Source of the DNA: Clostridia bacterium
Lineage (GTDB): Bacteria > Bacillota > Clostridia > Oscillospirales > Acutalibacteraceae
Assembly: GCA_017452785.1 (NCBI GenBank)
Contig: JAFTLT010000021.1
Coordinates: 42,125 to 106,124 of the forward strand
Reading direction: 5' to 3'
Length of the DNA stretch: 64,000 bases
The translations under genes and the position numbers were made by a program. Shown here piece after piece: positions 1,996 to 10,910 of the stretch. The stretch's first letter is position 1. Each line of letters opens with the position of its first letter. The notes under the pieces were generated by a model. The model did not search any database and was not told where the DNA came from. It worked only from the letters and a program-made list of their open reading frames with translations.

Positions 1996-4900
1996 TTATG
2001 CTTTCTTAACTGAAAGAGTAATGTCGCTGTCAGCAACTGAGATTGTTTTTGTCAGGTCTGCTTCAATTGCACCGCCGATGATGATGTCGTCAGCAAGAAG
2101 CTCAGACTTCATGTAGTCCTTATTATCCTCAAGGCAGCCGATAATGAAATCGCTGTCACTGCTTATAGCCATAACAACTCTCTGCTCAACCTCATAGCCT
2201 GCTTCCTTACGGATAAGCTGGCACTGGCGGATGATGTCACGAAGTGCACCTTCCTTAATGAGCTCGTCAGTGAGCACAACATCAAGAGCAATAACTGTTT
2301 CGCCCTGACATTCAGCTGAAACGATGCCTTCCTTAGTCTTTGACATCACTGAGAAAATTGAAGGATCATATGCTTCATCAAAGCCGGCAACAAGCACTGC
2401 TTCGCCTGTCTTTGCTTTTGCTGTGTACTCTGCCATTTCAGCAGCTGAAGCGCCTTCAAGAGCCTGCTTCATTTTATTTACGTTTTGCTTGAGAACTGCA
2501 CCTGCAACCTTGAAGTTAACTGTCAGGTAGCTGTCTTCGAGCACACTCTTGTCGCTGATGTATTCGAGAGTCTTGATGTTAAGCTCGTCGAGGATGTTCT
2601 TTTCATAAATCTTAATCTGTGCGCTCTTTGCTTCATCGCAGCAGACATAGAGCTTTGAAAGAGGCTGACGAACCTTGATCTGATGCTCGTTACGAAGTCT
2701 CATAGCAGTTGCAATGATTTCACGTGCAAAGGCTGTCTGCTCAATAATGCCGTCATCCTCGAAGCCTTCAAGCACTGTGGGCCAATCGCTGAGATGAACT
2801 GAAAGCTCACTTGAGGGCATTACACGGCGGATAAGATTCTGCCAAATGCTCTCTGTCATAAAGGGTATAACGGGAGCCATAACCTTAACACATGCTGAAA
2901 GAGCATTGTAAAGAGTCCAGTAAGCGATCATCTTGTCGCTTTCATCGCCTGTTTTCCAGAAGCGACGACGGTTTGTTCTGATATACCAGTTGGAAATATC
3001 ATCAACAAAAATTTCAAATTCTTTGATAACATTATATGCCTTGTAGTCATCCATCTGAGCAGTTGCCTTCTTAATGAAGTCATTTGTTCTGATAACGAGC
3101 CACTTGTCTGTGATTGTCATAGCATTTTTGTCAGGAGTATATCCCTCGAAGTTAGGCTTGTCAATCTTTGCATAGGTCTCAAAGAAGGTGTAAATATTCC
3201 AGAAGGAAAGAAGCTTTCTTCTTGCTTCGTCACCAAGGTTAAAGCCGAAGCGAACATCGTTTGCAACGGGAGCACCTGCATAGAGGTAACGCACTGTGTC
3301 GGCACCGATTTTTTCGGCAGCCTCATCAAAACGGATCATAAAGCCGGTTTTGGAGAACTTCTGACCGTTTTCCTGAATAACACTTGAGTGGCAGAGAACT
3401 CTTTCATAAGGAGCTCTGTCTTCAAGAACTGTGCTCATAAACAGCATTGAATAGAACCAGAGACGAACCTGCTCACGCATTTCAACAACCCATTCAGCAG
3501 GATAGTTCTTTCTCCATTCTTCTTTATCGTCAAAATAGCCTGTGGTTGAGAAGGGAACGATACCTGCATCGAGCCACACATCACCAACGTCAGTGATACG
3601 CTTAACATTCTTGCCGCACTTGGGACATTTGATTTCAACTTCGTCAATCCATGGTCTGTGAAGTTCGGGCAGAGCATCAACCTTTGCGGGGTCAACAGCT
3701 AATTCCTTGAGTTCATCAATTGAGCCAATAACGTGAACATTGCCGCAATCCTCACAAACATAGAAGGGCAGAGGCATGCCGTAATAACGCTTACGTGAAA
3801 TATTCCAGTTACCCATATTGTTGAGCCAGTCAGCCATTCTCTTGCCGTTTGACTCAGGTTCCCACTTAACGCTTGCTGCGTTCTTAATAAGGCGGGGCTT
3901 GAGCTCCTGTGTGGTGATGAACCACGAGGGTACAAGACGGTAGATAAGCTCTTCCTTACATCTCCAGCATACGGGGTAGCTGTGCTCGTGAGGTTTAACA
4001 AGATAGAGCTTGTTTCTGTTTTTGAGTTCCTCAAAAACTTCGTCAGCAATTGTTTTGCTGTTTTTGCCTGAGAAGAAGCCGAAGCCCTTGAGGAAGATGC
4101 CCATATCGTCAACAGGCATAATTTCGGGAAGACCGAGTCTCTTGCCGAGCTCGTTATCTTCTGCACCGCAACCGGGAGCAATGTGCACAACGCCGGTACC
4201 TTCTTCAGCGTCAACATCTTCCCATGCAACGATTTTGTGTTCAAAGCCCTGCTGTGCTTCAAGTTCGGGGAAGCAGGTTTCAAATTTTCTGCCAACGAGC
4301 TCTTCACCCTTAAACATGCGAAGAACTTCCAGCTTATCGTCGCCAAGATATTTAATAGCATTCTTTGCAAGAATGAGAGTCTGTTCGTCACTCTTGACCT
4401 TAACCTCAACATAGTCAATTTCGGGGTTAACTGCAAGAGCTACGTTTGATGAAAGAGTCCATGGAGTAGTTGTCCAGACAATGATTTTGCTGTCAAGACC
4501 CTCAACGGGGAGCTTGAAGAAAACAGAGTTATGTGTAACTGTCTTATATGAACCTGTCATTTCATGCTCTGAAAGTGATGTGCCGCAACGGGGACACCAA
4601 GGCATGGGCTTATATTCTCTCTGAATCCAGCCGTTGTTGTCGCAGGTCTTAAGGAAGTGCCAGATGCTTGTGATGTTCTTGTCTGTGTTTGTGAAGTAGG
4701 AGTTATCCCACTGCATCCACTGACCGAGTCTCTTTGACTGCTCGGTGATAACACCTGAATACTGCTTAACTCTGTCAACACACTTTCTTGTGAACTTGTC
4801 AATGCCGTAATCTTCAATATCCTTTTTGCTTTCAAAGCCGAGGTCTCTTTCAACTCCGACCTCAACCCAGAGGCCCTGTGAGTCGAAGCCATTCTGACAG

Positions 4901-9142: not shown

Positions 9143-9157
9143 GAACCTCTCCGTCGG

Positions 9158-9277
9158 GCAATGTCGTTAAGTTAACGACATTGCAGTGATATATCTGCTT
9201 CGCAGATGTGATATTCGCCTACGGTGAGTGATATTTTGCCTGTGGCAAAGTGATATATTTGCCCTTTTAGGGCAAAT
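9158..9277. repeat. Tandem array of five hairpins with GTGATAT linkers
   Basis: Hairpins lie at 9158-9184 (13-bp arms, 1-nt loop), 9193-9207 (ATCTGC), 9215-9227 (TCGCC/GGTGA), 9235-9249 (TTTGCC) and 9257-9277 (ATTTGCCC). Successive hairpins are joined by AGTGATAT or GTGATAT. It directly follows the dehydrogenase stop. A related array lies at 30978-31089. Confidence 0.8.
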
Positions 9278-9522
9278 GTTGTGGGTCTGCGACGCTATTA
9301 TAACAGTTTTTTAGTTAAGTCATTTCCTTAAGTTAATGACATTGCCTTCATGGGATACGAGTTGACGAAGCAGTAAGTTAGCTTCTGATTTATTAAATTT
9401 ATATTATATCTTACTGTCATAATTTCGCAGTCTTGCCTTTGCATTCTCGTCGCCCCTGAAAGGGGAGATGTCGCAGCGGAGCCTGCGTAGCTGTGACAGA
9501 GGGGTCCGGAAAGGAAACCTAT
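9278..9522. other. Intergenic region leading into the DUF559 element
   Basis: No gene seen. It holds a short imperfect palindrome (ttaagtcatttccttaag) near 9314-9331 and the first copy of a 148-bp repeat unit (9358-9505). Confidence 0.6.
9358..9505 (+). repeat. 148-bp repeat unit, copy A (left of the nuclease gene)
   Basis: Begins CGAGTTGACGAAGCAG and ends GTGACAGAGGGGT. It is nearly identical over its length to copy C at 10070-10218; a diverged partial copy B lies at 9974-10060. The last 59 bp form the left inverted repeat of the nuclease element. Confidence 0.85.
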
Positions 9523-9976
9523 ATGGAAGATGAAAAAGATTACAGTTATACGGGTTATAACAATATATTAAAAGAAAAAGCCAGAAGCCTAAGAAAAAAC
9601 ATGACACCTCAGGAGCGGCGACTTTGGTTTTGCTTTTTGAAAAGCTATCCTGTTAAAATTGTTAGTCAACGCCCAATTGGTATATACATAGCGGATTTCT
9701 ACTGTTCAAAAGCTAAATTAGTCATTGAACTTGACGGCAGTCAGCATTACACCGATGATGGTGTGGATTACGATGAAAACCGTACCTATGTTATTAAACA
9801 ATTTGGCGTAGAGGTTATACGGTTTTCTAATTATGATATAGACACAAATTTTGAGGGTGTATGTCTTGAAATAGACAGAGTAATCAGTGAGAGAATAGGT
9901 CAGCCAAGGCATTTAGTGTGACCCCTCTGTCAGAAACCGCAAGGGTTTCTGACATCTCCCCTTTCAGGGGCGACGA
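9447..9976 (+). mobile_element. Candidate mobile element: DUF559 nuclease gene between inverted repeats
   Basis: Perfect 26-bp inverted repeats (9447-9472 and 9951-9976; outer end TCGTCGCCCCTGAAAGGGG) and inner 12-bp inverted repeats (9494-9505 TGACAGAGGGGT, 9921-9932) bracket a single gene. Each end also contains a central hairpin of unrelated sequence. The gene's TGA overlaps the right repeat. Such compact architecture suggests that gene and repeats move or are maintained together. No target-site duplication was identified, so mobility is inference. Confidence 0.6.
9523..9921 (+). CDS. DUF559 / Vsr-like endonuclease-domain protein
   Basis: A 132-residue cytoplasmic protein of the DUF559 family, a PD-(D/E)XK-type fold related to very-short-patch repair endonucleases. 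Landmarks: LRKNMTPQERRLW (family N-terminal helix), SQRPIGIYIADFYC and AKLVIELDGSQHY (putative catalytic Asp and Glu), then DENRTYVIKQFGVEVIRFSN, the usual C-terminal part. The length is normal, so it appears intact. A GTG at 9493 would add ten residues inside the left repeat; the ATG at 9523 with AAAGGAAA upstream is preferred. It has no partner methylase or mutL-type neighbour; instead it sits alone between inverted repeats. Nuclease activity is inferred from the family. Confidence 0.85.
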   Translation: MEDEKDYSYTGYNNILKEKARSLRKNMTPQERRLWFCFLKSYPVKIVSQRPIGIYIADFYCSKAKLVIELDGSQHYTDDGVDYDENRTYVIKQFGVEVIRFSNYDIDTNFEGVCLEIDRVISERIGQPRHLV

Positions 9977-10069
9977 GCTGACGAAACGGAAAGTTTGCTT
10001 CTGATTTTATTATATCTTGCTGTCACAACTTTTCAGTCTTGCCTCAGCGTTATAGTCGCCACTTAAAGT

Positions 10070-10218
10070 CGAGCTGACGAAGCAGAAAGTTAACTTCTGA
10101 TTTATAAATCTTGATATTATATCCTACTGTCATAATTTCGCAGTCTTGCCTCTGCATTCTCGTCGCCCCTGAAAGGGGAGATGTCGCAGCGGAGCCTGCG
10201 TAGCTGTGACAGAGGGGT
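10070..10218 (+). repeat. 148/149-bp repeat unit, copy C (without a gene)
   Basis: Nearly identical to copy A (9358-9505), including the full left-end hairpin segment from 10160 to 10218, but with no nuclease gene after it. It is a solo end or an empty copy of the element. Confidence 0.85.
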
Positions 10219-10260: not shown

Positions 10261-10383
10261 TTATTTGTTGAAGCTGTCGATTGTCTCTTCGATTGAAGCG
10301 ATTGTTTCTTCGTCAACACCGAAGAGCTTAAGAAGGTCAACAAAAAGTTCTGCGAACTTGAAAACAAGTGCCTTTACGTCCAT
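10261..10383 (-). CDS. Small acidic amphipathic peptide 1 (40 aa)
   Basis: Begins MDVKALVFKFAELFVDLLKL and ends with a Glu/Asp-rich tail (DEETIASIEETIDSFNK). The hydrophobic residues repeat every three to four positions, as in an amphipathic helix. No Cys, no signal peptide, no known family. Evidence for expression is strong for such a short gene: GGAGG 9 nt before the ATG, its own sigma-A promoter (10439-10467), and a terminator right after. It resembles its two upstream neighbours in size and character, so they are probably paralogues. PSM-like surface-active or signalling peptides are one guess; the role is unknown. Confidence 0.7.
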   Translation of the reverse strand: MDVKALVFKFAELFVDLLKLFGVDEETIASIEETIDSFNK

Positions 10384-10438
10384 CGTATATTACCTCCGTT
10401 AATATTTTCAGACAAAGCCAATTTAATTGTCTGCTAAA

Positions 10439-10467
10439 ATTATACATTAGTGTACACGATTTGTCAA
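10439..10467 (-). promoter_or_regulatory. Promoter of peptide gene 1, with palindromic spacer
   Basis: TTGACA (10462-10467), exactly 17 nt, TATAAT (10439-10444): a near-perfect sigma-A promoter. The spacer contains the palindrome GTGTACAC, and a second TTTGACAA lies just upstream, so repressor binding is possible. Confidence 0.85.
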
Positions 10468-10506
10468 CATTATTGTCAAACTTCTTTAACATTTTTAATA
10501 AAAAAG

Positions 10507-10528
10507 TGCCGACCCGTAAGGGTCGGCA
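10507..10528 (-). terminator. Terminator between peptide genes 2 and 1
   Basis: GCCGACCC-ttac-GGGTCGGC followed on the minus strand by ACTTTTTTATT. Confidence 0.9.
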
Positions 10529-10555
10529 TCTTAAGCTATTTGCAAATAACTTAAA

Positions 10556-10690
10556 TTATTCAGCGGGTGTGTAGGGGAGTTCTTCTTCTTCTGCTACGAA
10601 GCCGAAAACCTTAACCATAACATCTTCGATGAGAGCGATGAGTGCTTCCCATGAGAAATCTTCGATGAGTGCCTTGATTGCGTCTAACAT
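10556..10690 (-). CDS. Small acidic amphipathic peptide 2 (44 aa)
   Basis: Starts MLDAIKALIEDFSWEALIAL and ends in a strongly acidic, proline-containing tail (EEEELPYTPAE). The helix-forming N-terminal 33 residues and the acidic C terminus parallel the other two peptides. The SD AAGGAGG lies about 10 nt before the ATG. It shares the transcript that starts at the promoter at 10911-10939, since no terminator separates it from peptide 3, and it is closed by the terminator at 10507-10528. No known family was recognised. Confidence 0.7.
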   Translation of the reverse strand: MLDAIKALIEDFSWEALIALIEDVMVKVFGFVAEEEELPYTPAE

Positions 10691-10742
10691 TGTTAGTATC
10701 CTCCTTCTTCAGTATTTTAAAAAATTGTTTTTTTGCTCGATA

Positions 10743-10856
10743 TTAGAGAATTTCGTCGAGGTCGATTTCAGGAAGTTCAACCTTGAGAATGCTCTTTACG
10801 AATTCGATGATCTCGTTGAAAAGTGATTCGAGAGCAGCCTTGATTTCTTCTGTCAT
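10743..10856 (-). CDS. Small acidic amphipathic peptide 3 (37 aa)
   Basis: Begins MTEEIKAALESLFNEIIEFV and ends LPEIDLDEIL; about one residue in four is acidic, and the hydrophobic positions are regularly spaced. SD AAGGAGGA at 8-9 nt. It is the first gene of the peptide transcript, with a consensus promoter about 55 bp upstream. It lacks a leader, a double-glycine site or cysteines, which argues against classical bacteriocins and lactone autoinducers. Function unknown. Confidence 0.7.
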   Translation of the reverse strand: MTEEIKAALESLFNEIIEFVKSILKVELPEIDLDEIL

Positions 10857-10910
10857 TGTGAAAGTCCTCCTTATTAGATTTACTTACGAGGTATTCTCTT
10901 AAGTACTTAC

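Follow-up and report, generated by a model that had tools for sequence, protein, structure and literature searches.

Why should a small nuclease gene lie alone between two inverted copies of a palindromic repeat? The domain DUF559 is widespread but has no assigned function, and one intact DUF559 gene is found in this setting in the window, by which we mean the whole 64,000-nucleotide stretch of clostridial DNA that was analysed. An initial annotation of the window proposed that the nuclease spreads or maintains the palindromes, in a way analogous to that of RAYTs but with an unrelated enzyme. It suggested comparing related genomes for enrichment of DUF559 genes between the repeats, for gene-less orthologous sites, and for agreement between the DUF559 phylogeny and the repeat family; repeats that flank unrelated genes as often as DUF559 genes would have spoken against the proposal.

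A DUF559 gene lies between two convergent palindromic units

The protein encoded by the window gene matches PF04480 (Pfam, E 4.3e-27) and has no further domain; the five large neighbours of the gene encode IleRS, a protein without a Pfam family, an SDR, PurL and PurD. The two units that bracket the gene are convergent, with both tails toward the gene (Table 1). Their outer inverted arms (9446-9472 and 9951-9977) are 27 nt long and their inner arms (9494-9506 and 9920-9932) 13 nt long, both pairs being 100% identical; between outer and inner arms each unit has a hairpin of its own, and the sequences of these two hairpins differ. The initial annotation, which had given 26 and 12 nt for the arms, correctly described an intact DUF559 gene inside perfect inverted repeats, with further inverted repeats within them, and a stop codon (TGA, 9919-9921) that overlaps the right unit. 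It was also right that a 148/149-nt stretch (9358-9505) recurs at 10070-10218, with a decayed copy between the two; the non-palindromic flank X is present in three copies, all in direct orientation.

Table 1. Features of the DUF559 element and its surroundings in the window.
Feature	Coordinates	Strand	Description
DUF559 (PF04480) nuclease gene	9523..9921	+	132 aa from ATG 9523; frame open from GTG 9493
Left palindromic unit	9446..9506	+	hairpin 1, CCCCT-GAA-AGGGGAGA; variable hairpin 2, TGTC...GACA; tail, AGAGGGG
Right palindromic unit	9920..9977	-	hairpin 1 as in left unit; hairpin 2 differs, self-complementary
Third palindromic unit, gene-less	10159..10218	+	within 149-bp near-copy of left flank
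Flank X copy 1, non-palindromic	9358..9445	+	from repeat comparison of the window
Flank X decayed copy	9975..10062	+	73% identity over 9963-10086
Flank X copy 3	10070..10158	+	94% identity over 10070-10218
Possible remnant of an older CCTCTCC-type unit	9143..9160	.	adjoins stop of upstream SDR gene; assignment inferred

Comparison of the window element with its own genome gave 53 matches at E of at most 0.001, a count that includes the locus itself and both strands of the palindromes, and bare inverted unit pairs are present in this genome. The hairpin-1 motif occurs at 25 places among the loci read, the window's three included, and most of these have a hairpin 2 of their own. We also note a second inverted pair (9157-9181 and 9322-9346; 84%) just upstream of the element, which contains AATGTCGTTAAGTTAACGACATT and is unlike the units, and a tandem of three small ORFs (~35-45 codons each) that resemble one another by eye, on the minus strand between the element and purL (~10262-10857). 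Comparable small ORFs seem to be present at the orthologous place in one relative (G005; locus L230).

The units combine two hairpins with a mirror-image purine tail

The unit design consists of a pyrimidine arm, a purine arm, a variable hairpin and a mirror purine tail, with the pyrimidine arm forming the 5' arm of hairpin 1. Hairpin 2 is variable yet self-complementary: a stem of at least 5 was found in 167 of 202 units, as compared with 6.5% in shuffles, and 71 different stems are represented. The tail mirrors the purine arm rather than repeating it directly. Beyond the search anchor, 90% of positions match as a mirror and 48% as a direct copy (191 units), and the mirror is the better fit in 212 of 213 asymmetric units, a comparison in which the search anchor favours the mirror at two positions. 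Inspection of a 40-unit alignment revealed no GTAG (or CGTC) tag conserved where the palindrome ends.

The first base of the tail varies together with the purine-arm base next to TG. Among 176 distinct units, the combination of arm base and tail base is G/G in 74, C/T in 87, A/A in five and something else in 10; that is, the tail base tracks the stem pair, with G accompanying G-C, A accompanying A-T, and T accompanying C-G. Purine-type triplexes tolerate T opposite a C-G pair, among other triplets. Sixteen of 78 stem-loop cores hold both G and C ends, and the coupling rules in each of the 16, with four exceptional units in total. Shared descent inflates the count of units, yet the recurrence of the same rule in 16 separate cores appears hard to explain without structure, and we take the covariation to be natural evidence for a third-strand DNA structure.

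The window protein is predicted to have a Vsr-like nuclease fold

An AlphaFold model of the window protein (mean pLDDT 84.7) was compared with solved structures using Foldseek. The best match is 3hrl, the putative endonuclease-like protein NGO0050, followed by 3r3p, the catalytic domain of homing endonuclease I-Bth0305I (E 3e-4), and, more weakly, by Vsr (1cw0 and 1vsr; E above 0.2, TM ~0.6); the initial annotation had described DUF559 proteins as Vsr-like PD-(D/E)XK nucleases. None of the residues E31, D58, D71 and H75 varies among 15 relatives, and the D-D and D-H spacings of 13 and 17 equal those published for Caulobacter VsrA (PMC12907096); by this spacing we assign the four as putative catalytic residues. 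VsrA is itself a DUF559 protein, described in the same paper as tied to mismatch repair and thought to act in very-short-patch repair. The window protein shares its nuclease fold with EDxHD homing endonucleases (3r3p). Unlike I-Bth0305I, which is described as a long protein of several domains whose target spans nearly 60 bp (PMC3943268), it has 132 residues, only the one domain found by Pfam, and repeats bracketing its gene. To Vsr it is alike in fold and in the spacing of catalytic residues; the linked cytosine methyltransferase of Vsr repair is absent among the five large neighbours of the window gene. The methyltransferase is also unlinked in the case of VsrA (PMC12907096).

These likenesses would fit an enzyme that cares for palindromes, resolving the hairpins or mismatches of the units and staying beside them while moving none. 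Such a role would suit the Vsr-like fold, the residue spacing common to the window protein and VsrA, and the G.A mismatch that can be seen by eye in hairpin 2 of the TGGC...GAC type. However, a repair enzyme that acts in trans needs no place between two units, and the presence or place of the gene varies among relatives; we consider this explanation quite improbable.

DUF559 genes are bracketed by units in several phyla

We searched the surroundings of DUF559 genes with a detector based on the unit design, which needs hairpin arms of at least 6; since it misses the window's own 5-bp arms, the rates that it gives understate the presence of units. For Clostridia, the best 80 of at least 567 named loci were used, and 75 of these had both flanks. 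A flanking inverted repeat with a score of at least 16 was found at 40 of the 75, and at six of 2785 control intervals from the same loci. By the detector, units lie on both sides at 42 of the 75 and on at least one side at 66, as compared with 10 and 211 of 1773 control intervals. A set from the window's relatives, which shares four loci with the Clostridia set, consists of 27 of 30 loci, the window's own included (L046 was left out for its short flank, and L050 and L051 were moved to a distant set); here, units are present on both sides at 18 of 25 loci and on at least one side at 24 of 25 (controls, 0 and 23 of 146).

The bracketing recurs in other phyla, with different repeat sequences. 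In plasmid and phage records from Cyanobacteria, Deinococcota, Proteobacteria and others, for which 24 of 39 matches were fetched, 13 of 23 loci have units on both sides and 21 on at least one (controls, 4 and 24 of 148); the eight with a unit on one side only include loci of E. coli, Neisseria and A. brasilense, and two have no unit. A later set gave 17 and 18 of 22 (controls, 0 and 16 of 121); when two loci already represented in other sets are excluded (L275 repeats L112, and L273 is 96.5% like L035), the numbers are 15 and 16 of 20. Four of the 22 are detector-negative, one of them with an inverted repeat outside the detector's scope, and one more has a single flanking unit. Among distant DUF559 domains, Vsr-like partial matches and helicase-sized fusions, by contrast, none of 25 has units on both sides and one has a unit on at least one side, in a set that leaves out L140, L141, L154, L155 and L167, of which L140, L141 and L155 carry units by eye. 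The partial matches L050 and L051 adjoin genes that resemble DNA methyltransferases by eye, and have no flanking inverted repeat.

Intergenic repeats may simply be dense, with DUF559 genes sitting in repeat-rich gaps or using the repeats as terminators. Indeed, at least one flank is occupied by a unit in 12% of the Clostridia control intervals (211/1773). The same is true of 117 of 275 other ORFs near DUF559 genes, and 14 of the 275 have both flanks occupied. The corresponding numbers for 78 DUF559-match ORFs are 61 and 30, and of the 14 other ORFs that are bracketed, 11 lie within 300 bp of a DUF559 gene and one is DUF559-like by eye. Bracketing far exceeds both the interval and the gene controls. 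Moreover, it is oriented, with the tail of the nearest canonical unit facing the gene in 37 of 46 upstream cases and 37 of 42 downstream cases, it is absent in the distant DUF559 relatives, and other phyla show it with different repeat sequences, all of which makes coincidence or insulation very improbable. The enrichment of DUF559 genes between the repeats, which the initial annotation had put forward for study, is thus seen in the sets of loci relative to control intervals, and unrelated genes are not flanked as often. Cold-shock genes, considered as a matched control family, were unusable, being present in only two of 40 genomes.

Individual loci show further arrangements. At L132, a second DUF559-like ORF lies ~950 bp from the DUF559 gene (1656-2051 and 3001-3348), with units on both sides. 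Short tandem arrays of unit pieces are present in the flanks of L063, where there are several copies, and L123, and downstream in L115; these arrays look as if part of a unit had been amplified in place. In Neisseria (L201), the DUF559 gene, which judging by the name NGO0050 is probably that of structure 3hrl, is flanked on both sides by long unit-bearing repeats that by eye are direct, not inverted.

Units co-occur with the gene, and repeat class follows the DUF559 tree

Across 147 genomes of the order, units were found in 31 of 32 genomes with a canonical DUF559 gene (E below 1e-20, a line drawn after the list was seen) and in 37 of 115 without. At least 10 units are present in 24 of 32 genomes with the gene and 12 of 115 without (p 3e-12), and, with genomes G000-G039 left out, in 18 of 25 and 10 of 106 (p 6e-10); these p values are too small, because the genomes are related and the repeat model was built on units adjoining DUF559 genes, and the reduced set is not fully independent, as the model includes units of named loci that may be in the 147 genomes. 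At most 39 candidates were scored per genome, and the match-less genomes (59 and 87) were counted from tallies. The occurrence of units in 37 gene-less genomes, with at least 10 in 12 of them, requires past loss of the gene, missing contigs or another enzyme.

The sequence of the repeat varies among loci, and the left and right repeats often agree inside one locus. On the DUF559 tree, repeat class undergoes 15 changes, as compared with a mean of 29.4 after shuffling, and none of 200 shuffles gave a number as low; in this comparison, which addresses the phylogenetic question raised by the initial annotation and shows that class clusters on the tree, 50 of 78 rows are labelled, many forks are unresolved and near relatives are included. 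Taken singly, two of the six classes are unclustered and a third is little clustered. The window's own genome contains two DUF559 genes and two repeat classes, with bare copies of each.

Gene-less sites and insertions

The neighbours of the window gene are an SDR gene on one side and purL on the other. In one relative (G003), the corresponding gap is ~200 bp and has neither a DUF559 gene nor a unit; in a second (G005), small ORFs without DUF559 occupy the place. In the nearest relative (G008; SDR 80% identical), the SDR gene is followed by a single unit of a different class, CCTCTCC-type, and then by sequence resembling the right side of the window element, with the contig stopping before purL. 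We found no DUF559 match anywhere in these three genomes, which are 72-95% complete, and other relatives have different neighbours downstream of the SDR gene. The orthologous sites without the gene that had been suggested as a check are thus found in two relatives, and in a third up to the end of its contig. The compared sites are too diverged at the DNA level, and no target-site duplication was seen in them.

Further cases come from other phyla. One hpa cluster in Deinococcus carries the DUF559 gene at a different junction in each of three species, with a unit on one side only at the third of these loci. In Pseudanabaena galeata (L262), a DUF559 domain lies within a single long open frame with an Eco57I-type methylase. 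At ~1339-1950, a unit pair, DUF559 and another unit pair together encode the ~200 residues that separate WKYWV from LKLIDPACGSGHF, where the homologs from Aulosira laxa and Azospirillum sp. TSH58 are uninterrupted, with a ~20-residue linker and no DUF559. Further on, a second insert of ~34 residues, consisting of bare units judging by its translation, is absent from both homologs. Relative to the uninterrupted homologs, this one gene has thus received both a cassette and a gene-less repeat stretch, in frame. At four cyanobacterial plasmid loci (L196, L197, L206 and L262), DUF559 is found within or next to DUF1156, PglX or other methylase genes. This placement may reflect repeated insertions; uninterrupted homologs were compared for L262.

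The main rival to a role for the nuclease in spreading the units is homing, whereby units would spread by other means, and a free-standing DUF559 homing endonuclease would cut existing inverted unit pairs and be copied in. The second-best solved fold is that of the I-Bth0305I catalytic domain (3r3p), the window's genome has bare inverted pairs that could serve as targets, and in L262 the methylase gene took up a gene-less repeat stretch as well as the cassette. Homing alone, however, does not predict that units are far commoner where the gene is present, nor that repeat class tracks the protein tree, and we found no other enzyme for the units, with Y1/RAYT-like genes bracketed by them at 0 of 20 loci and adjoined on one side at 2 of 20. 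We therefore regard homing as unlikely.

Parallels with RAYT/REP systems

In RAYT/REP systems (REPtron, BIME, REPIN), as here, a small enzyme gene lies between two inverted palindromes, and many bare copies, co-diversification of enzyme and repeat, and copy number linked to the gene have been described (compare PMC2817692). The two differ in the enzyme, which is a Vsr-fold nuclease here and an HUH tyrosine transposase in RAYTs, and in the palindromes, since the present units have no GTAG tag and have a mirror tail.

A RAYT or other transposase in the same genomes could nonetheless spread the units, with DUF559 as cargo, and Y1 transposase genes, RAYT-like or other, are present in 21 of 40 relatives. 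Against this, no Y1_Tnp match was found in the window's genome (90% complete), and in the relatives several Y1/RAYT-like genes come with different inverted repeats of their own, which in some cases are of the GTAGGGGCGACC type. At 20 Y1 loci (L185, which also holds a DUF559 gene, was left out), the present units are never on both sides and are on one side at two. We consider this the least probable of the alternatives, and have set RAYT-driven spread aside. Both systems can share one genus, with different repeats; the Y1/RAYT-like genes with their own inverted repeats at L181, L182, L183 and L186-L188 look like a parallel system.

A model for spread or maintenance of units by the DUF559 nuclease

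RAYT/REP systems were recognised by their anatomy, orientation and copy number, by co-diversification and by gene-less sites (PMC2817692), and the same marks are seen here with an unrelated enzyme and another repeat. We propose, with a probability of roughly 0.7, that the window locus is an autonomous copy of a REP-like system of mobile or maintained repeats, in which the DUF559 nuclease spreads or maintains the units. The suggestion of a RAYT-like role for an unrelated enzyme is thus supported, with none of the comparisons proposed for it speaking against it. We infer the substrate, the cleavage, the strand transfer and the causal role of the nuclease, as follows. The nuclease would recognise a folded single strand of the unit, comprising hairpin 1, hairpin 2 and the purine tail, with the tail folding back as a third strand; such a folded strand might arise, for example, on the lagging strand at a replication fork. 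The nuclease would then nick at or near the folded unit, and strand exchange, copying or excision would multiply bare units, leaving them scattered as single, paired and tandem copies, while the same process would sometimes move the whole cassette.

A possible link to BoxC/PIT/triplex repeats

BoxC/PIT/triplex repeats have been known since the 1990s. Their design, with a C-arm, a G-arm and a G-tail that is a mirror tail, is that of the present units; the clostridial units differ in that their second loop contains a variable hairpin. Holder et al. (2015; PMC4666352) catalogued 23 E. coli copies of the BoxC/PIT/triplex motif, and describe Enterobacteria, Cyanobacteria and Neisseria as rich in it. 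Copy 9 in their Table 1 (1,351,239-1,351,204) lies between fabI, which ends at 1,351,039, and ycjD (1,351,407-1,351,760), which is a DUF559 gene, the same as that in our locus L205; the copy is on one side of ycjD only. The chance of a copy within ~350 bp of one given gene is ~23 x 736 / 4.64 million, or 0.4%. The words DUF559, nuclease and ycjD are absent from the main text of that paper, which reports finding no mobility activities near the motif. Triplex formation in vitro has been published for the E. coli motif only, and the in vivo footprint in the same paper did not show a triplex.

These parallels lead us to favour, by a little over even odds, the broader view that the units belong to a pan-bacterial class of repeats run by Vsr-fold DUF559 nucleases that read a hairpin with a third strand, and that such nucleases may be what drives the orphan BoxC/PIT/triplex repeats found in E. 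coli, Cyanobacteria, Neisseria and gut Clostridia. If so, the RAYT/REP way of life would have been invented twice, independently. The DUF559 nuclease is a good candidate for an enzyme that spreads or maintains, in several phyla, a repeat family without a known enzyme. Joining DUF559 to BoxC/PIT/triplex repeats makes both testable, and would define a REP-like system with a different enzyme fold. We found no literature joining DUF559 with palindromes, BoxC or REP in a search from which preprints were absent and in which subscription journals were sparse, so novelty is not proven.

E. coli strains that lack ycjD were considered as clean empty sites and rejected, as efflux genes are present there in the two that were fetched (PMC12817139). 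At least 80% of the ycjD region is present in 3333 of 5426 E. coli genomes.
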